This document shows positions 7,019 through 46,247 of a stretch of DNA of 46,320 bases, one piece after another. Location of the stretch: positions 1-46,320 of IMG/VR virus record IMGVR_UViG_3300008113_000217, one strand, 5' to 3'. Under the pieces are notes generated by a model. The model was not told the DNA's origin. It saw only the letters and a program-made list of their open reading frames with translations, and did not search any database. The stretch's first letter is position 1. The number at the start of each line of letters is the position of its first letter. Origin of the DNA: a virus. Both the position numbers and the translations under genes were made by a program.

Positions 7019-7116
7019 TTAGCTTTTAAAGAAGCAATTACTTTACGATTTTCTTGTATACGTTTTATATTTTTTAAAACGTTTTTTCTGTTGCGTTTTT
7101 TAGGTTGACTTTTCAT
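7015..7116 (-). CDS. Very basic 33-residue peptide
   Basis: Starts MKSQPKKRNRKNVLKNIKR and continues QENRKVIASLKAN. The start codon overlaps the stop of the lysin gene by one base (TAATG), a sign of coupled translation. The composition (about a third Lys/Arg) suggests nucleic-acid or membrane contact. An in-phase-looking continuation exists in another frame just downstream, so the gene may be truncated by a frameshift. No family recognised. Confidence 0.5.
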   Translation of the reverse strand: MKSQPKKRNRKNVLKNIKRIQENRKVIASLKAN

Positions 7117-7706
7117 TACTTAATATCAGCACTTTCAATTAAAGTATAAGTAAATGATGGGCCATGGATTTTAGCTGCTTCACGAGCAATAACCATGAAT
7201 GCTTCAAAATCAGCTGCTTTTTTAAACACTTGACATCCTTCAGACCAGTTTTCTACATAAGTAGAATCAACACCTGCTTTATGAATATTAATACCAAAAA
7301 TACCTTCTTGTATTTTAGTTTCATCATAAGTCATGTCTTTGTTTGCATCACGATAAACTTTAACTGGTTTAGCTTGTTTTAAAGCCTCATATTTACCTTG
7401 GTGTAAACCTAAAGTGTGTGAACCACGATATTGTCCTTCAACTAAACGAGCAACACCTGCTGCGTTGTGAAATTCTTTTACACCTTTAGTACCTGGATCA
7501 GTTGTGCACTGCCATTGTTTAAATACCCAGTTACCACCTACTTTGTAAGATACAGTCATTGTATCATCAAATACGTTTGTAACTTTGTTACCTGTTGCTG
7601 AGTTACGAACACCAACAATATTTAGATCGTAATCTTTAGTTCCTTCGAACCATACATAACCTTTTGCTTTTACAGCTGCTTCGATTTGTTCTTTTGTGTA
7701 TGCCAT
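7116..7706 (-). CDS. L,D-transpeptidase-like phage lysin
   Basis: A 196-residue protein probably acting on peptidoglycan. The C-terminal half has GIFGINIHKAG, then 12-13 residues later NWSEGCQVF: a His and a Ser-x-Gly-Cys arranged as in YkuD-type L,D-transpeptidases and related phage peptidases. The start is chosen at the internal Met of MAYTKEQIEA (7706), because the 17 upstream residues are poor protein and contain the late box. N-terminal residues ~1-20 (TKEQIEAAVKAKGYVWFEG) are typical of this phage family as I remember it. No signal peptide, so it would need a holin or another export route. Confidence in peptidoglycan action is moderate. Confidence 0.7.
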   Translation of the reverse strand: MAYTKEQIEAAVKAKGYVWFEGTKDYDLNIVGVRNSATGNKVTNVFDDTMTVSYKVGGNWVFKQWQCTTDPGTKGVKEFHNAAGVARLVEGQYRGSHTLGLHQGKYEALKQAKPVKVYRDANKDMTYDETKIQEGIFGINIHKAGVDSTYVENWSEGCQVFKKAADFEAFMVIAREAAKIHGPSFTYTLIESADIK

Positions 7707-7727
7707 AATTATAAGATTTATTTTCCT

Positions 7728-7735
7728 ATAAATAT
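7728..7735 (-). promoter_or_regulatory. Putative late promoter box ATATTTAT
   Basis: ATATTTAT 22 nt before the chosen start of the lysin gene, lying between the lipoprotein stop and the lysin start. It would give the lysin late expression independent of the early-type promoter of the lipoprotein gene. Confidence 0.45.
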
Positions 7736-7749
7736 GGTATATACATGTT

Positions 7750-8406
7750 TTATTCAAAAATTACTTTCATCTCGTAATTCTTAATTTCTTGACGACCAAA
7801 ATCACTATTGAAAACAACTCTCATAAAAATAGTAGCAGTATCCCCAATCATTTCATCATCTAAAAATATATTAATTCCCGGTTGATACGTGTACTTACTG
7901 TAAACTGCTAATATTGTACGAGCATATGGTTTTTCCCATCCTGTGAATTTTTTAGGTATTTGATATCCAACAATATTAGTGGGAGACATAAAATCAGATA
8001 AACCAGCCATTGTGTAAGTACGTGTCCCAACAGGAATTGGATCTTTAAAACGCTTATCCGTGTATAGTCCTAAAAATGAATATACTGGGTATCTATATCT
8101 AACTGTGTCAAACAATACAAAATAATCCGAATCAAAACCTACTTCAATTAATGGAACTTCATTGATTACGTATTTTGGAATTAATTCTGATAGTTCTCCT
8201 CTTATTGTAAAGTAATTTAATCCAATATATTTTATATGGTGATATCCATTTAAATCAATTGAATCTTCTCCAGGACCTGAAATGTAAAAGAAGCCTTCAC
8301 AGTTTCCATTTAAACAAGGGTAAGGCCCTTTTTCTTCTTCATCTTCTGGTTTAACACAAGAAAATAAACTAATGCTTAGTAAAGCAAATAAAATAATTTT
8401 TTTCAT
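7750..8406 (-). CDS. Phage-encoded lipoprotein (218 aa)
   Basis: A clear lipoprotein signal: MKKIILFALLSISLFSC, with Cys17 as the lipidation site, followed by an acidic linker (VKPEDEEEKG). The acid-rich residues right after Cys resemble export signals of Bacteroidota surface lipoproteins. The remaining ~190 residues are beta-rich and soluble with no recognised domain. It sits between late structural genes but is preceded by an early-type promoter (8419-8441), which also overlaps the candidate terminator of the gp6 gene. That arrangement fits a moron-type gene, for example superinfection exclusion; this is inference. Confidence 0.75.
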   Translation of the reverse strand: MKKIILFALLSISLFSCVKPEDEEEKGPYPCLNGNCEGFFYISGPGEDSIDLNGYHHIKYIGLNYFTIRGELSELIPKYVINEVPLIEVGFDSDYFVLFDTVRYRYPVYSFLGLYTDKRFKDPIPVGTRTYTMAGLSDFMSPTNIVGYQIPKKFTGWEKPYARTILAVYSKYTYQPGINIFLDDEMIGDTATIFMRVVFNSDFGRQEIKNYEMKVIFE

Positions 8407-29521: not shown

Positions 29522-29544
29522 TAAATGTAACAAACTTATTTTGA
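29522..29544 (-). promoter_or_regulatory. Early-type promoter (TCAAAA-N9-TACATTTA)
   Basis: Drives the MSGGHFDY-family gene and the chain of small genes after it; the hexamer overlaps the last codons of the glucosaminidase gene. Confidence 0.65.
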
Positions 29545-30123
29545 TGAGCCAAATCTCATTTTTAAATTTTCTCTATTAATCATATCCTTTAATATTGAAA
29601 CATAATTAGGATTCTCAGCGTATGATTGAGATAAATAATCAAAATACAGTTCTTCAGTTGTAATGTTTGATAGATATTTACATTGATAAAATGAGTAATC
29701 TAAAACTGATTCATACCATGTATGATAATAAGCATGGTTATTTTCAGTTCCTTTAGCAGTTGTTATACGTTGATGTGCTTCACGCATACCGAACAGATTA
29801 TTATTTTCCCTAAATACTTTACTTGTAAAATTACCTGTTTCAAGTTTTGCTTGAGCTAATACTATGTGAGGGAATTTAATGTTTAATTCTTTTAGTTTTT
29901 CAATTAATTTGTCTTCTGAGAATTTATTATACTCTTGAATAACAATCAATTTTTCTTCCTCAGATAAACTGAGTAAAACATTTTTACCCAATTTATAGCC
30001 TGAGTAAAATAAAATAGAACCTAATACTGTTGTCACAATAATAGTGATGACAATAATTTTACCTACTACATTAATTGGTTTTGGTTGTAGTGTTTTGGGA
30101 TCAATTCTAAAGATGTTTTTCAT
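29536..30123 (-). CDS. Membrane-anchored glucosaminidase (GH73-like, 195 aa)
   Basis: The start is fixed at the internal Met of MKNIFRIDPKTLQPKPINVV (30123), because a strong early promoter lies between this point and the longer frame's start. One membrane helix (~24-42) anchors an exported domain with the GH73 pattern: FPHIVLAQAKLETGNFTSKV (catalytic Glu in L-E-T-G), then NNLFGMRE and a Tyr-rich C-terminus (SQSYAENPNYVSILKDMI). It should cut glycan strands between GlcNAc and MurNAc. Early expression and anchoring suggest wall modification rather than lysis timing. Confidence 0.75.
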   Translation of the reverse strand: MKNIFRIDPKTLQPKPINVVGKIIVITIIVTTVLGSILFYSGYKLGKNVLLSLSEEEKLIVIQEYNKFSEDKLIEKLKELNIKFPHIVLAQAKLETGNFTSKVFRENNNLFGMREAHQRITTAKGTENNHAYYHTWYESVLDYSFYQCKYLSNITTEELYFDYLSQSYAENPNYVSILKDMINRENLKMRFGSSK

Positions 30124-30137
30124 ATTATTTGTTTTTA

Positions 30138-30160
30138 TAAAGATAATAAAGGGGCTTTGA
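30138..30160 (-). promoter_or_regulatory. Early-type promoter (TCAAAG-N9-TATCTTTA)
   Basis: Upstream of the glucosaminidase gene; hexamer in the loop region of the hairpin at 30151-30167. Confidence 0.7.
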
Positions 30161-30167
30161 CAGCCCC
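30151..30167 (-). terminator. Hairpin shared with a promoter
   Basis: GGGGCT-GTCAA-AGCCCC followed by TTTATTATC on the minus strand, 6 nt after the stop of the RNA ligase gene. A 6-bp stem with a 5-nt loop. Confidence 0.65.
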
Positions 30168-30172
30168 TATCT

Positions 30173-31333
30173 TTAGTGTGAATCTCCAACATCATGTTTT
30201 TCACTCCAAATTAAATAATCTGGGTTAATACACTTGTACACTTTATTTCGTTCTCCTGATGTATGTTTAATAACAATACCTTCATGTGGTACTTTAGTAT
30301 CTTCAATATTATTATTGAATGTATATTTGTCTTGCATTTCTTGATTCCAATAACCTATATATAAAACAGGTACGTGTGGTAAATCAATACCACCGATAAA
30401 ATCAAAAGCCTTCCCAGCCATTGTGTAGTAAGTTTGCTCAGTAGATAAATAATTACCATTCCATATAATATCAAACCCAGCAAACTCTAATTCTTTTAAT
30501 CCGTAATCATAATTCTTTTGAATACCAGGACCATATATCTCACCATAAACCACTATCCCATTTCCAATTTCTGATGGTTTATGATTTTTAACAAACGCCC
30601 ATAATTTATTTTTAATGTCGTATTTTTCAGCTACTGTTCTCCATACGTCTGTATCATAGAAACCTTGTGAGTCACTACCTTTTTCTACATTATGAGAACC
30701 ATAAACATATTCATAGTCAATCCATTTATCAGCTAAACCAAAGAATTTCTTTAACTTATCCCAGAATGATAATTTATTTTTCTTAACAATACCATAACGA
30801 GCATTAGTACCATGTAACTTACGGGTGATTTGAACTTCATCTTCTTCAGTAAACATACCGCTAACATTTTTAGCATTAGGAAATTTATAGTATACTTGGA
30901 AGTTTGGATTCTGGTGGTATTTAATTTTACGACCTGAAGACAATTGTACTTGTACTGCTGGTGGTTCGTATTTATAGATTTTAAATAAATCCATCATATC
31001 AGCACCTTCAGCCCATTTAGCTTTAGGATGTGTTAATTTCTCAGCATATCTAAATGGAATAATTAAACATTCACTATATACTCCTCTCAATTTAACAGTA
31101 CGTACACGTTGACCTTTTCTTAAATAATTAGTCACGCCCATACTATCTGATAACTCTTGAGGTATAACAGCATCGGTAGTAGCTATGATTACTAAATCAC
31201 CTACACTGTATTCACCTTTTTTAGTAATACAATTCCATCCACCAGCAACAACTTGTTCAATGTTGTCTGCACCTGGGATTGGTTTTACTTCGTTGATTGT
31301 TGTAACATAACAAACACTATTATTATTTTCCAT
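30173..31333 (-). CDS. RNA ligase, Rnl5/DraRnl-like (386 aa)
   Basis: N-terminal ~110 residues form an OB-fold-like domain (ENNNSVCYVTTINEVKPIPG, then CITKKGEYSVGDLVIIATTD), as in Deinococcus-type RNA ligases. The catalytic domain has QITRKLHGTNARYGIV, where the lysine is motif I (K-x-H/D-G-T-N), followed by a YGEIYG motif III-like strand, EGIVIKHTSGE as motif IV and NKVYKCINPDYLIW as motif V. It should join RNA ends, likely repairing tRNAs or mRNAs cut by host defence nucleases. The broken DNA ligase gene lies directly upstream. Confidence 0.85.
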   Translation of the reverse strand: MENNNSVCYVTTINEVKPIPGADNIEQVVAGGWNCITKKGEYSVGDLVIIATTDAVIPQELSDSMGVTNYLRKGQRVRTVKLRGVYSECLIIPFRYAEKLTHPKAKWAEGADMMDLFKIYKYEPPAVQVQLSSGRKIKYHQNPNFQVYYKFPNAKNVSGMFTEEDEVQITRKLHGTNARYGIVKKNKLSFWDKLKKFFGLADKWIDYEYVYGSHNVEKGSDSQGFYDTDVWRTVAEKYDIKNKLWAFVKNHKPSEIGNGIVVYGEIYGPGIQKNYDYGLKELEFAGFDIIWNGNYLSTEQTYYTMAGKAFDFIGGIDLPHVPVLYIGYWNQEMQDKYTFNNNIEDTKVPHEGIVIKHTSGERNKVYKCINPDYLIWSEKHDVGDSH

Positions 31334-33975: not shown

Positions 33976-33988
33976 ATTTTGATGTTAG

Positions 33989-34057
33989 TAGTCAGGACAG
34001 GAATCGAACCTGTGTCTCCCATACCAATATGGGGCGTTACCACTACGCTACCTGACT
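33989..34057 (-). tRNA. tRNA-like gene 4, with 6-nt anticodon loop
   Basis: Same acceptor stem (AGTCAGG/CCTGACT); T arm ACAGG-TTCGATT-CCTGT, one loop base different. D arm GCGT-AGTGGTA-ACGC. The anticodon-arm position forms CCCAT-ATTGGT-ATGGG: a perfect 5-bp stem but a 6-nt loop, and there is no base between it and the D stem. If T33 is the second loop base, the anticodon would be TGG (proline), but the loop is one base short of normal. Length 69 nt; the core may be degenerate. CCA not encoded. Confidence 0.65.
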
Positions 34058-39358: not shown

Positions 39359-39796
39359 TTACTTTAATGCCTCTTGTATTGCCATTTTTAATGCTATTGA
39401 TAACGTGGTTTGTTGAAATGGTACGCCATTATCTAATTCTAATAGCATAGATTTAGCTTGTGTTTTGTATCGTCCTGAGCCAGAGTGCATACTTTTTCCA
39501 ATAGATATAGTCACACGTACCTCAGTTATTTTATTACTGATAGCAAACCCTCCAATACGAAATGTGTTTTCAGGTACACCTATATAAGTTACATTAACTG
39601 TTACAGGTTCACCTGTACATAGTGAATATCCTTTTTCTTGTAATAGATCTTCTGTAATGGCTTTTATTCCAAACAGTACATTTCTGTTTTCTAATTGTTT
39701 AATCTCTGCAGTTGAGTATACAGAATCAATTTGTACACATTGACTTATACCTATAAATGGTATGAATAATAAAATAAAAAATATTAGTTTTTTCAT
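39359..39796 (-). CDS. Secreted beta-rich protein (145 aa)
   Basis: Signal peptide MKKLIFFILLFIPFIGISQ (SQ-type cleavage, as in Bacteroidota Sec substrates), then a beta-rich domain with GEPVTVNVTYIGVP and VRVTISIGKSMHSGSG. The strand-turn pattern resembles small periplasmic/outer-membrane assembly factors; an accessory of the CsgG pore is possible but not shown. Overlaps the next gene by 4 nt. Confidence 0.6.
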   Translation of the reverse strand: MKKLIFFILLFIPFIGISQCVQIDSVYSTAEIKQLENRNVLFGIKAITEDLLQEKGYSLCTGEPVTVNVTYIGVPENTFRIGGFAISNKITEVRVTISIGKSMHSGSGRYKTQAKSMLLELDNGVPFQQTTLSIALKMAIQEALK

Positions 39797-40626
39797 AGTT
39801 TAAAAGTTGTTCCTATTAATATGTTATGCATTACTCCCCATTTTGGGGTTGTATTTATGTTAGCTCTATGAGTTAAGTTTAGTTTAAAATATTTAGACAA
39901 TTTAATTCCTATACAACCACCAGTAATAGCATTAAAAGTAGAAGATGTACTTATATAATCCATACCAATATCATAATAAGGAGAACACATTGTGATGAAT
40001 GCTTCTGATCTAAAATCTATATATTTTGTTATAACAAACTCTTTCTGAGTTATTAAGACTAAATAAGGTACAGCTACAAAATAAGCATCTTTATCAGTAC
40101 TTTTACCATTTGCTACAACTCCAACTCCTATTTGAGTTCCTAAAGTAAGACCTTTAATAATTTTAGGTTCCCAAATTCTAGTTACACTAGCGCCTGTATT
40201 TAATGCCATCCCCATTCTACCAAAATTTATATGGTAATACCAATCTTTATATCTATAATAAACTGAGTATGCCTGTTGAGTTAAATCAAATGTAATAATA
40301 GCATTCACTCCATAACCTTTTTTAAGATTGAGTTTACTCCAACTCAAACTAGTACCAGGTCTAAATGAGAATTCTTCATAAGTTGGACTCCCAACTAACA
40401 TAAAGTCAGCAGCATTATATATTTGATTAGGCTTAATTATTGAACCTCCACCAAATGATCTAGATTGTGACCCAGCTATATTATTTTGAGTGTTACCAAA
40501 ATCTTCACGAGGTGATGATGTAGATTTAACTGGAGGTGGAGGAGGAGGTGGTGCAGGTGGATTTGGCTGTGCAAACATACCTAATGGTAAGAACAATAAA
40601 ATAAAAAATAATAATTTAGTTTGCAT
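39793..40626 (-). CDS. Secreted outer-membrane-type protein (277 aa)
   Basis: Signal peptide MQTKLLFFILLFLPLGMFAQ, then a proline run (PNPPAPPPPPPPVKSTSSP) and a beta-rich body with alternating hydrophobic strands (YYRYKDWYYHINFGRMGMAL), as in outer-membrane beta-barrel or adhesin-like proteins. The proline spacer is unusual in a phage product. Part of the 39.3-46.2 kb envelope operon; overlaps both neighbours. Confidence 0.65.
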   Translation of the reverse strand: MQTKLLFFILLFLPLGMFAQPNPPAPPPPPPPVKSTSSPREDFGNTQNNIAGSQSRSFGGGSIIKPNQIYNAADFMLVGSPTYEEFSFRPGTSLSWSKLNLKKGYGVNAIITFDLTQQAYSVYYRYKDWYYHINFGRMGMALNTGASVTRIWEPKIIKGLTLGTQIGVGVVANGKSTDKDAYFVAVPYLVLITQKEFVITKYIDFRSEAFITMCSPYYDIGMDYISTSSTFNAITGGCIGIKLSKYFKLNLTHRANINTTPKWGVMHNILIGTTFKL

Positions 40627-41767
40627 TTCCTGTTCTTATAATATAAAAGTTTGTTGTTCCGTTTTGAGATGGATTATCAAGTATAGATGTAGATGTACCT
40701 GGGATTGTAGGTCTTAAATCAACTGTATTAGTCTTAATAATATTTGTATTTGTTAGTGTAAAGTATCGAGCAACTGGTACTTTCCATTTTCTTTTTTGTA
40801 TTTGTAAGTATAAATCTGAAACTGAAAACATAGTATCATTATTAATGTCATAACGATAATAATCTCCTGAGTTAGAGGCCCGCTGACTTAAAATAATCCT
40901 AGATAAATCTAACCAATCTGTTGATGTATTACTTATACTAGTGGGTGGTTCAGCTACTATCCTAAATTGGAATGAATTGATATCTAATTCTAATCCAGTA
41001 AATAAATAAGAACCATTAAAAGCTGATAGTTGGGTATTAGTTAACTGCCAAGTAGTATCAGCAGCTGCTGGAGTGAATCTATATGATTCACCTGTACTAA
41101 TACTCCATTGAGATGCATTTTTGCCACCTAATGGAACTACAGTATTAAAATTAGTACTTATTAAACCTGCTGTTGCATTATTACCACTACATAAAGGTTT
41201 ACTTAAATAGTTTATATCAATTACATTGGTTGTTTCATATAATATAAATTGAAATGTATGTAAATTAGTTCTACAACCATAGTGTGGTACTTGAAAAAAT
41301 GATACAACTAACATTCTATTTGGGGCTGATCCTATTGTAGTATAACGAATATTAGATGCCCCTGGTAATAAGTCTTCCCAATCAGCTAGTATAGCGTTTG
41401 TTGGTGAACCAGCATTTGGGATAAATGCAGCTGTATAACCTGTTGTTTGCCCAGCACTAAAACCAATCCAACCATTAGATCCAACATAAAATTGAGTATA
41501 GAAATTATTGAAGTATTTAAATGTGAATCCAATATTAAAGGGTCCATGTGTTGCATCATCAGAAGATTGTATAACAGTGCCCACATTATATGGTTGAGCT
41601 GAGTATGTTGGCTCAGTTATACTATATACAGATGTTCTTTTTGTAAATAATTTAACAGGTATATTTCCAACACCTATATTATTTATATTGAATATAGAAC
41701 CTTGATGTCTAAAATCCTGTGATAAAACACAAATTGGTAGTAATAATAAAAGTAATATTAGTCTCAT
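40616..41767 (-). CDS. Secreted protein with dockerin-like segment (383 aa)
   Basis: Signal peptide MRLILLLLLLPICVLSQ, then ~250 residues of beta-rich, Gly/Ser/Thr-rich sequence with one Cys pair (GCRTNLHTF ... PLCSGNN), reminiscent of secreted adhesins with nidogen-like domains. Residues ~285-325 carry YYRYDINNDTMFSVSDLYLQ, matching the F-helix/Ca-binding-loop pattern of dockerin type I repeats. Dockerins bind cohesins, and the T9SS protein upstream has cohesin-like domains, so the two may pair on the surface. Overlaps both neighbours by a few nt. Confidence 0.6.
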   Translation of the reverse strand: MRLILLLLLLPICVLSQDFRHQGSIFNINNIGVGNIPVKLFTKRTSVYSITEPTYSAQPYNVGTVIQSSDDATHGPFNIGFTFKYFNNFYTQFYVGSNGWIGFSAGQTTGYTAAFIPNAGSPTNAILADWEDLLPGASNIRYTTIGSAPNRMLVVSFFQVPHYGCRTNLHTFQFILYETTNVIDINYLSKPLCSGNNATAGLISTNFNTVVPLGGKNASQWSISTGESYRFTPAAADTTWQLTNTQLSAFNGSYLFTGLELDINSFQFRIVAEPPTSISNTSTDWLDLSRIILSQRASNSGDYYRYDINNDTMFSVSDLYLQIQKRKWKVPVARYFTLTNTNIIKTNTVDLRPTIPGTSTSILDNPSQNGTTNFYIIRTGNAN

Positions 41768-43032
41768 AACGTTAATTTTGCTCCAAACAATAATTGATAA
41801 TTTAATACATTTTCAGTTACTGAATAAGTAGTACCACCAGTTAAACCCATTCTAAATGCTTTTGTAACTGCGTAGTTTATATTTAAAAATGGTATTGCAA
41901 TTGGTTTAGCTTCAAACACTTGTTCGGTATAATATTTCATATAAGGAACATATATAGCTGCTAATATTGCTACAGCATCTATTTTATTTGTTATCTTACC
42001 TCTATACATTCCACCTGCTATTGCTACTGCTGCTGTCATTGGTTGCTTATACATTGTCCCATACACACCAGCTGCTCCGTATAACCAAGTAACCTTTTTT
42101 AAATTATCTATACGTATAAATACTAAAGTATTTGTAAAAGTATTAGGTAGTAATGATACACTGTTAGATACTAAGTCAATATGTTTTCTTTGTGTTTTAG
42201 TTGTTATCCAAGACTTAAATACTGAGACGTTACCAACTTGTGCTTTTATAGTAAAATCAGCTGATGCACCCCAAGATGATTTGCCATCACCTTTCATTCT
42301 AATATAACTAGTTGTTATCCTACTATCTTGTAAATTATCAGATGCTCGTTGAACACCTACAATATCCCCAGTTAATAAAATAGCTGGTTTTTGTCTTTGA
42401 GTTGCTGATGCTTGACTAGTAGTTCTATTAGTACTAGAACCTGTATTAACATTTGTTTCTTGCTCTACCTTTTCATCTTCAACCTCTGTTTTAGGTTTAG
42501 ATTTTTCATCAGTACTGCTGTTGGGGTTAGACGAACCACCGCCACTCCCACCACCAGAATTATTATTGCTTTCATCTTTTTTCTCTTCTTTCTTTTCTTC
42601 TTCTGTTTTACCTTCAGTAGCATTTGCTGCTGATGCTGCTCCTACTGAGGCTGTACCACCAAAATTGCTTACTGTATTTATTAATGTATTTAATGATAAA
42701 ACATTTGTTACAATGACATTAGATATGTTTAAAACATTATCTGTAATTACATCAAATCCAACAGAACCACATGGATTACCTTTACCATATTTACTATAAA
42801 CACCATTTGCCCAAACATCAAATTCTCCACTCTGTAATTGTTGAGGAGTGAAGTTTTGTATTTGACCATAATAAGTTACAGTAACTGGAAAGTTTCCGTT
42901 TTGTGATGGTACTTCAAGTTTTTTAATTTCTTTAGTACAAGGATCAATATATGAATAAGTTATCGTTTGTCCAAACGATAGTGTACTTAAGAAAAGTAAG
43001 ACAACAAGTAAATTATTTTTCAAAAATGCCAT
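41764..43032 (-). CDS. Secreted low-complexity and barrel-like protein (422 aa)
   Basis: Signal peptide MAFLKNNLLVVLLFLSTLSF with FG-type end; residues ~135-215 are Glu/Lys/Ser/Gly repeats (EEEKKEEKKDES, GGGSGGGSSNPNSS), a flexible spacer; the C-terminal ~200 residues have alternating strands (MTAAVAIAGGMYRGKITNKI), as in an outer-membrane barrel. Overlaps the CsgG-like gene by 20 nt and its partner by 4 nt, so translation is coupled. Likely an outer-membrane or surface component. Confidence 0.6.
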   Translation of the reverse strand: MAFLKNNLLVVLLFLSTLSFGQTITYSYIDPCTKEIKKLEVPSQNGNFPVTVTYYGQIQNFTPQQLQSGEFDVWANGVYSKYGKGNPCGSVGFDVITDNVLNISNVIVTNVLSLNTLINTVSNFGGTASVGAASAANATEGKTEEEKKEEKKDESNNNSGGGSGGGSSNPNSSTDEKSKPKTEVEDEKVEQETNVNTGSSTNRTTSQASATQRQKPAILLTGDIVGVQRASDNLQDSRITTSYIRMKGDGKSSWGASADFTIKAQVGNVSVFKSWITTKTQRKHIDLVSNSVSLLPNTFTNTLVFIRIDNLKKVTWLYGAAGVYGTMYKQPMTAAVAIAGGMYRGKITNKIDAVAILAAIYVPYMKYYTEQVFEAKPIAIPFLNINYAVTKAFRMGLTGGTTYSVTENVLNYQLLFGAKLTL

Positions 43033-43702
43033 CTTTAATCATCCTTGTTACAACACGAGAACAACCTGTTTCCAAAGCTTTTCTTGTTGATATACCAACG
43101 GTTGATTGGGCAAATTTCATTTCAATTGATTTTAAAAACGATTGACCGTATTGAGTAGCTTCACCTAAACCAGAACCTACTCTAACTTGTCCTGACTCAG
43201 CGTCTACAAATCTAACTTGTAAACCTAAACGAGTAGTTACTTCTAATTGTTTTTTACCAGCTACAAATGTTTCTTGTTCATCAACTGAGAAGTCATATAC
43301 TTCAATATACACAAAAAACTTAGCTAATTTAATTTTACCTTTACCGTCTAATTTATTTTCAGTAAAACCTTTGTTACTAGCTTGAAACTGCTTAACCATT
43401 TTTAATTTTATCTCTTCCTTATCTTCAGTGAATTCAAAACGGTTAGTACCTTCTAGATAATCTAAAGCAATATTAGTTACACCTAATCCTACATTCTTTT
43501 CTTTAAGTACAGGATACATATTTAAAACATTATCACTAATACCAATAGATAAAATTTGAATTGGTATTTGTTTACCATCATAATCACTTACAGTGGTAAT
43601 AGACTGTTTCTTTTCAAAGTCGGCTTGGTATGTTTCAGTTCTAGTTGTACCACATGACACTAACACCAAAATAACTAAAACAGATATTAATTTATTTACC
43701 AT
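43013..43702 (-). CDS. CsgG-family outer-membrane pore lipoprotein (229 aa)
   Basis: Lipoprotein signal MVNKLISVLVILVLVSC with Cys17 as lipidation site. The mature protein matches the CsgG family pattern: VGLGVTNIALDYLEGTNRFE, then FFVYIEVYDFSVDEQ and TTRLGLQVRFVDAESGQVRV, followed by GEATQYGQSF and a C-terminal helix. CsgG forms a nonameric outer-membrane channel; in E. coli it exports curli subunits. Why a phage encodes one is open: export of phage proteins, or outer-membrane permeabilisation for exit. Family call is from pattern memory. Confidence 0.7.
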   Translation of the reverse strand: MVNKLISVLVILVLVSCGTTRTETYQADFEKKQSITTVSDYDGKQIPIQILSIGISDNVLNMYPVLKEKNVGLGVTNIALDYLEGTNRFEFTEDKEEIKLKMVKQFQASNKGFTENKLDGKGKIKLAKFFVYIEVYDFSVDEQETFVAGKKQLEVTTRLGLQVRFVDAESGQVRVGSGLGEATQYGQSFLKSIEMKFAQSTVGISTRKALETGCSRVVTRMIKDGIFEK

Positions 43703-44058
43703 GGTGCTTCTTCTTCTTTAGGTTTATCTTCTTTTTTCTTTTCTTCCTTAGCAGGAACTTGTTTCTCAACTACTCTTTCTCTGATAACAGTTGGAGCAGC
43801 AGTTTTTTGCTGTTGAGTGTTTTCTTGATTTTGCTGAACATTAATAATAACAGGAGCAGGAGCTGGTACAGCGGATACTGGATGTCCAGCTGAGTCTACT
43901 TGTACTACTTTTTCTTCTTTGGTTTCACTATGACCACCAAATATAGTAGTACCTAAATAAGCTCCTCCACCTGTAATAAGTGTTGTTAATGTTGCAATAA
44001 TAGTCTTTTTCAATCCTGAAAAAGTACCTTCGTTTGTTTCATTTGTTTCTTCTGACAT
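43696..44058 (-). CDS. TonB-like single-pass protein with Pro/Glu/Lys tail (120 aa)
   Basis: Cytoplasmic acidic start, one membrane helix (~16-42, GLKKTIIATLTTLITGGGAY), then a periplasmic tail alternating Pro/Ala (PVSAVPAPAPVIINV), Gln-rich (QQNQENTQQQK) and Glu/Lys-rich (KEEKKKEDKPKEEEAPW). The layout is that of a periplasm-spanning strut such as TonB or TolA linkers, though no TonB C-terminal domain is present. Could link the inner membrane to the CsgG-like pore beside it. Overlaps the CsgG-like gene by 7 nt. Confidence 0.6.
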   Translation of the reverse strand: MSEETNETNEGTFSGLKKTIIATLTTLITGGGAYLGTTIFGGHSETKEEKVVQVDSAGHPVSAVPAPAPVIINVQQNQENTQQQKTAAPTVIRERVVEKQVPAKEEKKKEDKPKEEEAPW

Positions 44059-44076
44059 GATTTTTCCTTTCTAAAT

Positions 44077-45963
44077 TTATAACGTTATACCTGATATTAC
44101 TTTTTTACTTGATATTATTTTACCATCACATTCCATAATAGCGAAATATGTACCTCCTACTAATCCAGCTAAATCTGCAGTGTATCTGTATTGGCCTTCA
44201 GGCATCCTAGTATCAATAACATTTACTACTTTATTACCATATATATCAACAAAATACACTGTAGTATTAGAATTAGCAGGTACATTAAATTGTACAGCTA
44301 CCATACCGGTTGTTGGATTAGGATAAATTAAAATGTCTGCTACATCTGTACCTACATTAACTGTTGGATATTGTACTCTTTGAACTTCAATCCTACCATC
44401 AGTTGGTCTGATACGTAAATCATCTGCAAATGTATTACCAACAAATTTACGAGTTACATATATAGGACTAGCTGCCCAATCTTGTTTTGGTTTTAAGGCT
44501 TTAAATTGTAATACAACTACCTCTTCACCATCAACAATATTATTTTGATTTGACATATCAACACCACCCCATTCAACTATACCATCATTTGGATTAGTGA
44601 ATGATAACCATTTACCAACTTTTTCTTTTGTCACTACACCTTTAAATTCTAATAATGATTTATCATATTTTAAAGCCAATTGAAATGCTCCTAATGATTG
44701 ATTACCGATTAATGCTTTAACTGGTATATTAACTAAGTTACCTTCTTCTACATTTAATGTTGGTAAATTAATTTCTATCTCTTGTAAATTAGCATAGTAT
44801 TCTGTGGTTTGGTCTATAATAAAGTTAGGAGCATTGTTAGGATTAATAATTTTGATTGGCACTAACTTAGCCATACGGAAACCTGTTTGATTAGCATCAC
44901 CTGAGGCTAACACATATACTCTTACCGAGTCAACTCCAGGTATAATTGTATAAGAATAATTCACAACACCAGGAATAGTTAAACTATAGTTTATAGTAGA
45001 ATTATTTATGATAGTATCATATTGAGACTTAGTGAAGAATCTAACATCAGGTACATTATAAGATGTAAATCTACCAGCAATCCTATTAAAGATACTATAT
45101 ACGTCAGCGATGGTTATTTCACCTGAACCATTTACATCTGAGGCATGGTAATCAAATCCAGTAGGTGTTTCTAATCCAGTAACAAATCTATTTACTTTTT
45201 GAGCGTCGGCTGCTGTTACAACATTACCCAATGATAAAGTATCACCTTTAACTTCAATTTTAGCATTATACCAAGTAGTATCTATATCAGCCTCAAAATT
45301 AAATTTACCACTTAAATCAGTAGTATCAACTTTAACTAAACTCCAAGTAGTAGATGCTTTAGGTTTCTTATATAAACCAACTGATAAGTTTTTAGTAAAT
45401 GAACCTGACACATTAACAAATGTACCATGAAAAGATATATTTGGTCTTAAGAATTTACCACCCGCGTTAAATTTAGTTAATACTGTATCTTTGCCTTCTG
45501 AGGTTGACGCAACAGTAGGATATAAATTGTCAAATATTAAGTTTGATATATTTGCTAAATTTTGAAATATGCTATCTGCTTTATGTTCAAATTTAATATT
45601 AAACATTTGTCCAGAAGCATAAGTAAAATTACTATCAGTACCTGTATATACAACAGTAGTTATTATTCTATTCCCAACAACATGAGTTTGTAGATACTGA
45701 CTTGGGTCAATAGTAGATAATGATAATACTGGGTTGATGAATGCTGCTGTATCATATCTTAAAGCAAACTGCAAACCAGTTATTTTAGTACTAGTTGTGT
45801 TGTTGTAGCAAATTTTAACATTTGTTTCTTTTGATACAGATGTCCCTACAGGATAAACTGAATCTATTATAATAGAATTACCACTTGGTGTAGGGCAAGT
45901 TTGGCCATAGCTCGGCACATATAGCAGAGCTATTAAAGAAATTAACAGAAATAAATTTTTCAT
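44077..45963 (-). CDS. T9SS-sorted protein with cohesin- and dockerin-like domains (628 aa)
   Basis: Signal peptide MKNLFLLISLIALLYVPSYG then QT. Two cohesin-like segments: residues ~45-165 (TKITGLQFALRYDTAAF) and ~405-515 (LGAFQLALKYDKSLLEFKG, then WGGVDMSNQ and VVVLQFKALK). Between them a dockerin-like motif, DVNGSGEITIADVYSIFNRI. The C-terminus (~545-628: LIYPNPTTGMVAVQF ... GLVGGTYFAIMECDGKII) is a type A type-IX secretion sorting domain, which in Bacteroidota directs export across the outer membrane and attachment to the surface. A T9SS cargo in a phage is remarkable; it implies use of the host T9SS. Confidence 0.78.
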   Translation of the reverse strand: MKNLFLLISLIALLYVPSYGQTCPTPSGNSIIIDSVYPVGTSVSKETNVKICYNNTTSTKITGLQFALRYDTAAFINPVLSLSTIDPSQYLQTHVVGNRIITTVVYTGTDSNFTYASGQMFNIKFEHKADSIFQNLANISNLIFDNLYPTVASTSEGKDTVLTKFNAGGKFLRPNISFHGTFVNVSGSFTKNLSVGLYKKPKASTTWSLVKVDTTDLSGKFNFEADIDTTWYNAKIEVKGDTLSLGNVVTAADAQKVNRFVTGLETPTGFDYHASDVNGSGEITIADVYSIFNRIAGRFTSYNVPDVRFFTKSQYDTIINNSTINYSLTIPGVVNYSYTIIPGVDSVRVYVLASGDANQTGFRMAKLVPIKIINPNNAPNFIIDQTTEYYANLQEIEINLPTLNVEEGNLVNIPVKALIGNQSLGAFQLALKYDKSLLEFKGVVTKEKVGKWLSFTNPNDGIVEWGGVDMSNQNNIVDGEEVVVLQFKALKPKQDWAASPIYVTRKFVGNTFADDLRIRPTDGRIEVQRVQYPTVNVGTDVADILIYPNPTTGMVAVQFNVPANSNTTVYFVDIYGNKVVNVIDTRMPEGQYRYTADLAGLVGGTYFAIMECDGKIISSKKVISGITL

Positions 45964-45971
45964 TTTATTAC

Positions 45972-46247
45972 TTATTGAATTTCTTCCTCGTTACTTTTAT
46001 CTGTGTTTTCGCTGTTACCTTTTTTGTTTAGCCACTTATCAACTGAGGCAATACCGAATGAACCTAACACAATGACCATAAAGCCATCAAATATAAATTC
46101 ATTAAGTACTAATGGGTTTCCAAAATACCCAGTGACTAAATCTACTCCTAATGCTATTACAAGCATAAAGAAAGCAATAAATCCAACTACTGCTTTTTCA
46201 TTGATGGAATTATTGTCATCAAATAATTGTTTAAAAAAATTTTTCAT
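45972..46247 (-). CDS. Holin-like membrane protein (91 aa)
   Basis: Two membrane segments (~19-38, VVGFIAFFMLVIALGVDLV; ~50-70, FDGFMVIVLGSFGIASVDK) with a short loop, a Lys-rich turn and an acidic C-terminal tail (NTDKSNEEEIQ). The size, two helices and charged tail resemble small phage holins that control lysis timing. First gene of the envelope operon; a late-type ATATTTAT box is 43 nt upstream. Confidence 0.6.
   Translation of the reverse strand: MKNFFKQLFDDNNSINEKAVVGFIAFFMLVIALGVDLVTGYFGNPLVLNEFIFDGFMVIVLGSFGIASVDKWLNKKGNSENTDKSNEEEIQ

Follow-up and report, generated by a model that had tools for sequence, protein, structure and literature searches.

A conserved Bacteroidota phage cassette that appears to hang interchangeable sugar-binding proteins on the infected-cell surface through a cellulosome-type joint

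The cassette and its genes

This report concerns a cassette of minus-strand genes at positions 39359-46247 of a viral DNA of 46,320 bases (IMG/VR record IMGVR_UViG_3300008113_000217, referred to here as the window), which is a fragment of a T4-like Bacteroidota phage and includes T4-like baseplate genes. All of the open reading frames (ORFs) described for the cassette were confirmed at their coordinates, and neighbouring genes either overlap by 4-20 bases or are separated by gaps of 8-18 bases. In order of transcription, they encode the holin-like protein HOL, a 628-residue scaffold sorted by the type IX secretion system (T9SS), the 120-residue protein STRUT, a 229-residue CsgG-like protein, and the proteins P422, P383, P277 and P145. 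The whole set is kept in the cultured Flavobacterium phage immuto_2-6A (hereafter immuto) and in more than 130 viral contigs, one of 434 kb, which excludes a chance arrangement and bears out an earlier note on this DNA that had described one operon of overlapping genes.

Signal peptides, called with a simple rule, are present in the large majority of cassette members, and together with the T9SS tail of the scaffold they would take the products out of the cytoplasm of the infected cell. The four additional secreted proteins announced by the earlier note are real, and are described below as an outer-membrane barrel (P422), a dockerin protein (P383), a relative of the barrel (P277) and a relative of the CsgG-like protein (P145). 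The first gene, HOL (45972-46247), encodes a small protein of 91 residues whose sequence has two hydrophobic segments, giving it the look of a holin with two transmembrane (TM) segments, and no match to a holin family was found in Pfam, PHROGs or NCBIfam. The HOL relative in immuto (gene 79; L085:8898-9284, where L numbers denote loci of the comparison) lies directly 5' of the genes for a glycoside hydrolase family 19 (GH19) chitinase/endolysin and an annotated holin (genes 80-81).

The T9SS-sorted scaffold

The 628-residue scaffold (44077-45963) is built, according to Pfam and PDB profile matches, from a signal peptide, a first cohesin, an SdrD-like spacer, a dockerin, a second cohesin and a type A sorting tail. 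Cohesin-like domain 1 (residues 24-172; 45448-45894) is matched by a family hidden Markov model (HMM) at 2.6e-55 and is kept in immuto gene 14, and cohesin domain 2 (residues 395-540; 44344-44781) is matched by Pfam Cohesin at 1.5e-8 over residues 397-500 and by the structures 6kg8 and 6kgc. The dockerin-like segment between them (residues 243-300; 45064-45237) has a canonical loop, DVNGSGEITIADVY, and a degenerate first repeat, and the C-terminal type A sorting domain (YPNPTTG ... GGTYFAIMECDGKIISSKKV; 44080-44331) matches Por_Secre_tail at 4.3e-8. The Pfam Cohesin match covers two stretches and exceeds the gathering score, and the Dockerin_1 match (0.0014) falls under it. When a profile of the scaffold family was compared with solved structures, the cohesin 6kg8 (2.3e-6), the dockerin 4uyp_B (0.012) and the T9SS tail 8glk_D (4.1e-4) were all recovered. 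Thus, a T9SS type A protein with two cohesin-like segments and one dockerin-like segment, as the earlier note had read it, stands, and the scaffold has both the signal peptide and the Por_Secre_tail by which type A cargo is recognised in sequence.

The order cohesin-dockerin-cohesin-tail is found in 54 loci with an HMM built from the relatives, and in the immuto group the same modules are divided between two genes, one for cohesin 1 and the dockerin and the other for cohesin 2 and the tail. The T9SS tail is present in 35 of 37 scaffold relatives. As for the F-hand repeats of the dockerins, the second loop is canonical in 28 of the 37 scaffold rows (four of which comprise cohesin 2 and the tail only) and in 37 of 42 relatives of P383, the first repeat is degenerate, and Pfam matches are mostly under the gathering score. 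In 19 of 19 large phage records, the cohesin matches lie in one or two proteins of the cassette and nowhere else; in the immuto loci, the cohesin and dockerin HMMs match genes 13-15 only, and no further cohesin or dockerin protein was found with them. No virion protein was therefore found as a possible partner, and P383 would be the natural client of the scaffold.

P383 and its exchangeable heads

P383 (40616-41767) is a secreted protein in which a beta-rich head (residues ~55-236) is set on a constant dockerin module, with the loop DINNDTMFSVSDLY at residues 307-320 and a dockerin HMM match of 4.4e-3. The 42 relatives share the dockerin module and a C-terminal domain, and differ in their heads, for which Pfam assigns Lectin_C to 28, LamG to 11, PA14 to 6, and GEVED and LCCL to one each. 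The EPN...WND motif, a signature of Ca2+-dependent sugar binding, is found in 29 of the 42, the P383 of the window not being among them. Neither the P383 heads nor the scaffold, relatives included, yielded a catalytic domain. In most relatives, P383 is by its sequence an exchangeable lectin, and this gives the scaffold something to display.

Exchange of the heads is seen between phages with 89-100% identity in the neighbouring genes. For instance, in loci L012 and L014 the neighbouring genes are 97-100% identical and the dockerin tails 89% identical, and the heads share 31% identity; the head alone is also exchanged in the near-identical pairs L022/L023 and L025/L028. A diversity-generating retroelement was considered as the source of this variation and rejected, as 20 records yielded no reverse transcriptase and it is the whole head that is exchanged.

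The CsgG-fold protein and P145

The 229-residue protein (43013-43702) has an LVSC lipobox, and its gene overlaps those of STRUT and P422. At the level of sequence, no CsgG match was found in Pfam, NCBIfam, PHROGs or the PDB, where a search with a profile of the protein returned a chance match only, and an hhalign comparison of the single sequence with Escherichia coli CsgG gave a weak alignment over one 23-residue stretch, colinear in register and not significant; a fold search was needed. In a Foldseek search with the AlphaFold2 model (mean pLDDT of 71.6), CsgG fills the first 18 PDB places (best 1.5e-7, probability 1.00, TM-score of ~0.5), with PelC, LptE and other lipoprotein relatives ranking lower, and the best match in BFVD is a phage CsgG at 1.1e-6. 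On the strength of this model, the protein is a CsgG-family member at the level of fold.

The earlier note had called it a CsgG-family pore lipoprotein, and not all of this designation survives. The fold is confirmed, and the window protein does have a lipobox, although lipidation looks likely for only 21 of 88 relatives. Formation of a CsgG-type pore is doubtful in view of short hairpins with acidic residues that do not vary: the first hairpin is present but contains the invariant residues E142 and E144, and the second is ~12 residues shorter than that of E. coli CsgG and contains the invariant E181. The protein is probably ring-forming. P145 (39359-39796), the secreted product of the last gene, is a distant relative, aligned to the CsgG-fold protein by hhalign with a probability of 97.2% and 18% identity over 152 columns. 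For the curlin subunits CsgA/B, and for CsgE and CsgF, no match was found among the operon proteins in Pfam, NCBIfam or PHROGs.

P422, P277 and STRUT

P422 (41764-43032) has a signal peptide, and is modelled by AlphaFold2 as a small N-terminal domain with a Y.DPC motif, a helix, a disordered low-complexity linker and a 12-strand outer-membrane beta-barrel (residues 217-421), for which the Foldseek neighbours are a COG4313 channel, KdgM, NanC and FapF. P277 (39793-40626) clusters with P422 by blastp as a barrel-like relative, and consists of a signal peptide, a Pro-rich segment and a barrel-like C-terminus ending in ...GTTFKL.

In the alignment of its relatives, STRUT (43696-44058) has a single N-terminal TM segment, rich in small residues, followed by a variable tail rich in Pro, Gln, Glu and Lys that ends, in the window, in ...EEEAPW. 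The C-terminal residue is Trp in 81 of 81 distinct sequences, and this invariance after a variable tail suggests that the C-terminus is a docking peptide. An N-in/C-out orientation is suggested by the LKK that precedes the TM segment and the acidic residues that follow it. The earlier note had seen a TonB-like protein here, for which there is no support from homology, no family match having been found in Pfam, NCBIfam or PHROGs; a single-TM, Pro/Gln/Lys-rich strut is what remains of that proposal.

Conservation and hosts

A search of a viral collection with the CsgG-like protein yielded 93 relatives, of which 80 were kept, giving 81 loci with the addition of immuto. Relatives of P422 were found in 78 of these loci, of STRUT in 76, and of the scaffold or P383 in 77. 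With P145 as the query, 220 relatives were found and 80 kept, for which 76 loci were newly fetched, 16 of them on contigs already represented among the CsgG loci. In 55 of the 76, the CsgG-like, P422 barrel and STRUT genes are all present, in 54 together with cohesin and the T9SS tail. In the remaining 21 loci, P145 lies within 3.9 kb of the locus start, which leaves the upstream genes beyond the end of the sequence; the CsgG-like, barrel and STRUT genes are present in every locus of sufficient length to be assessed.

In a phage collection, the CsgG-like, scaffold and P422 proteins match immuto isolates only, the host of immuto being Flavobacterium. A bacterial or prophage origin of the locus was also considered and set aside, since a pattern-based and not exhaustive scan of a genome collection returned only two contigs of metagenome-assembled genomes, one assigned to Flavobacterium and the other to an uncultured Bacteroidetes. 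In immuto, where most cassette genes are annotated as 'hypothetical', the cassette follows genes for ribonucleotide reductase and a nuclease with a signal peptide, and lies beside replication genes and away from the head and tail clusters, with a holin/chitinase pair ~30 kb off and a separate lysozyme. This position, together with the exported products, favours a role at the surface during infection. A search of open-licence literature found no virion proteomics paper for immuto.

A proposed display at the infected-cell surface and its alternatives

The explanation that we favour, though with rather less than even confidence, is that the operon encodes an exported envelope complex, not part of the virion, that remodels what the surface of the infected cell binds. 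By way of the host type IX secretion system, the T9SS protein would reach the external side of the outer membrane and act there as a small scaffoldin, whose cohesins would hold the dockerin tail of P383, leaving the exchangeable head, a Ca2+-type C-type lectin in most relatives, to bind glycans. Beneath the scaffold, the CsgG-fold protein (probably as a ring, with P145), the P422 barrel and the inner-membrane STRUT would form an envelope-spanning base, in which the invariant C-terminal Trp of STRUT would be a probable docking plug. The outcome would be altered surface binding of the infected cell, for which our first choice of benefit is a covering of glycans that leaves competing phages to adsorb less (superinfection exclusion), and our second is adhesion. 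The earlier note had staked its proposal on CsgG and cohesin/dockerin folds, and these are present, the one by Foldseek and the others by the profile matches to 6kg8 and 4uyp_B.

A number of observations weigh against a surface display. The head of the window's own P383 matches no Pfam family, its nearest relatives being those of L045 and L077 (54% identity), with a domain 42% identical to it in a 634-kb uncultured phage (LR745206.1:25927-26517). P383 has no sorting tail of its own that would account for its arrival at the surface. In sequence, the dockerin matches are weak, and the modules might no longer bind one another; in the L030 group (eight loci) the scaffold lacks a T9SS tail. Largely different tail spikes accompany one and the same lectin type (72% in L080) within the immuto group, so that masking of the phage's own receptor is not favoured; covariation of lectin heads with tail fibres was pursued in the immuto-like genomes, but the spikes differ among all of them, which provides no clean test and speaks slightly against receptor masking. 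Lastly, a GH19 endolysin gene lies near the cassette in 25 of the 81 loci, which fits lysis better.

Lysis or egress is the main rival, in which STRUT and the CsgG-fold/P422 pair would act like a spanin or a gated pore that breaks the outer membrane after endolysin, with the lectins loosening or crosslinking surface glycans. In addition to the GH19 genes, which fall within 8 kb, a two-TM gene is found within this distance of the CsgG-like gene in 45 of the 81 loci and a HOL relative in 26; in the L030 group the CsgG-like gene is flanked by holin-like genes on one side and a GH19 endolysin gene on the other, and in L072 it is directly preceded by a class 3 lipase gene (Lipase_3, 5.6e-27; L072:641-1384). 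The overlap of a gene for an inner-membrane protein with one for an outer-membrane lipoprotein resembles a spanin layout, and a lysis role has been proposed for CsgG of phage Melnitz (PMC9004378). Linkage to endolysin is, however, confined to some groups, the CsgG hairpins do not look membrane-spanning, and immuto has its holin and chitinase ~30 kb away as well as its separate lysozyme. Swappable lectin heads on a T9SS scaffold are surplus to lysis, and the remark of the earlier note that this is more host-surface engineering than lysis needs is supported; the genes form one conserved envelope and surface cassette. We consider a part in lysis rather unlikely, but it stays in play because in some lineages the cassette adjoins endolysin and holin-like genes. 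Somewhat less likely again is adhesion, or 'sibling capture', as proposed for the curli genes of pelagimyophages (PMC7029224), whereby a lectin coat would stick infected cells to other cells or particles and bring progeny to new hosts. Variable glycan-binding heads would suit diverse partners, but there is no recognisable amyloid subunit, and Melnitz, albeit a different system, showed no clumping (PMC9004378).

The remaining alternatives are each improbable. The cohesin/dockerin pair and the carbohydrate-binding heads could act as an auxiliary metabolic module for nutrient or substrate capture, by which the infected cell would be held to polysaccharides; PA14, LamG and C-type lectin heads do belong to carbohydrate-binding families, and Cryophage, a different phage, has T9SS-tailed glycoside hydrolases and a PA14 protein (PMC7468147), but with no catalytic domain in heads or scaffold and no need for the base components, such a role seems quite improbable. 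A little less credible is a secretion device, in which a CsgG-like ring and a FapF-like barrel would export a filament-forming protein not yet recognised. CsgG and FapF, the structural neighbours, are both exporters of functional amyloid, and an Ala/Gly/His-repeat protein (AEAHA...) is encoded between STRUT and CsgG in six relatives (e.g. L063:432-1421), but it is found in few loci and shows no clear signal peptide, and a barrel of 12 strands resembles sugar porins as much as FapF. The least credible is that the lectins end up on tails or capsids, although C-type lectin folds do occur in phage receptor-binding proteins. Against the loading of exported parts onto virions, which the earlier note had also entertained, stand the signal peptides or N-terminal TM segments of the products, the T9SS tail in nearly all scaffolds, the restriction of cohesin to the cassette in the records searched, and the position of the immuto cassette outside the structural clusters.

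Relation to known systems

Phage CsgG genes and phage T9SS cargo are each known separately. Pelagimyophages and phage Melnitz carry CsgG/CsgF genes of unproven function (PMC7029224, PMC9004378), and the presence of CsgG-like genes in aquatic phages was called a mystery in 2020 (PMC7029224). As in the cassette, a CsgG-fold protein is encoded by the phage in one operon with other proteins destined for export. There, however, CsgF is the partner, and the similarity to bacterial CsgG is direct and in sequence. Here, the similarity extends to the fold alone, and the CsgG-fold protein is accompanied by a cohesin/dockerin lectin system, the Trp-ended STRUT and a barrel of 12 strands. In the case of Cryophage, genes with type A sorting tails (an endoglucanase, a GH39 protein and a PA14 protein) vary between closely related phages (PMC7468147). 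The type A tails, the PA14 protein and the variation between close relatives are features in common, but in Cryophage the tails are on the variable cargo genes themselves, while here the cassette and its cohesin scaffold are conserved and the variable domain is on a separate dockerin protein.

The closest likeness in design is to cellulosome scaffoldins, with cohesins on a surface scaffold and dockerin-tailed clients with exchangeable heads, although here there are no enzymes, two cohesins, a degenerate first dockerin repeat, T9SS anchoring and encoding by a phage, and binding is a prediction. PelC and LptE share a fold class with the CsgG-like protein, and FapF resembles the P422 barrel and N-terminal region; sequence identities are 5-15%, and the likeness of 12-strand barrels is generic. 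No polysaccharide or amyloid genes were recognised near the cassette. No report of a phage cohesin-dockerin system, or of this cassette, was found in the open-licence literature. It is possible, though rather doubtful, that a cellulosome-like, T9SS-anchored lectin display of cohesin and dockerin on an envelope-spanning base of CsgG-fold ring, barrel and STRUT is built by many phages of Bacteroidota, jumbo phages included, and that near-identical phages exchange the heads to tune which glycans, and hence which rivals or neighbours, are bound. Were a display confirmed, phages would remodel the infected-cell surface with exchangeable lectins, and in a major aquatic phylum this would be a further, new level at which phages interact with one another and with the community. 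Since a cultured Flavobacterium phage carries this conserved cassette, and cohesin was found nowhere else in the phage records searched, the question of why aquatic phages carry CsgG-like genes becomes directly testable.

Genes beside the cassette

Several other genes recur at these loci. In 16 loci (L002:9935-10513; L032:453-1076; immuto gene 12), the cassette is adjoined by a gene for a DNA/RNA non-specific endonuclease that begins with a signal peptide; this enzyme could cut the DNA of rival phages as it enters through the periplasm, or remove host DNA when the cell lyses. A secreted 157-residue protein with a zinc-protease-like HESHH motif and no Pfam match (L048:7089-7562) is encoded near the cassette in 20 loci, and a coiled-coil protein with a colicin-like hydrophobic C-terminus (L036:5057-5959) in 13, adjoining the GH19 endolysin in the L030 group. 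In that group, a 122-residue tail-like lipoprotein (L030:8239-8607) follows the tail-less cohesin protein, and may substitute a lipid anchor for T9SS sorting. The place of the class 3 lipase gene of L072 is taken by a 247-residue gene in L073 and L050, and the Ala/Gly/His-repeat protein in immuto adjoins the holin and chitinase instead (L085:10550-11389).

In the window, the tightly packed minus-strand genes run on through thyA, a glycosyltransferase-like gene and a phosphoesterase-like gene. Two endolysin-like genes are found elsewhere, at 7116-7757 and 29536-30204 (PHROGs endolysin, 3e-11 and 1.9e-15), so that lytic enzymes of the phage exist apart from the cassette. At 33988-34057, ARAGORN identifies a tRNA-like gene, perhaps the remnant of a tRNA, whose anticodon has two bases.

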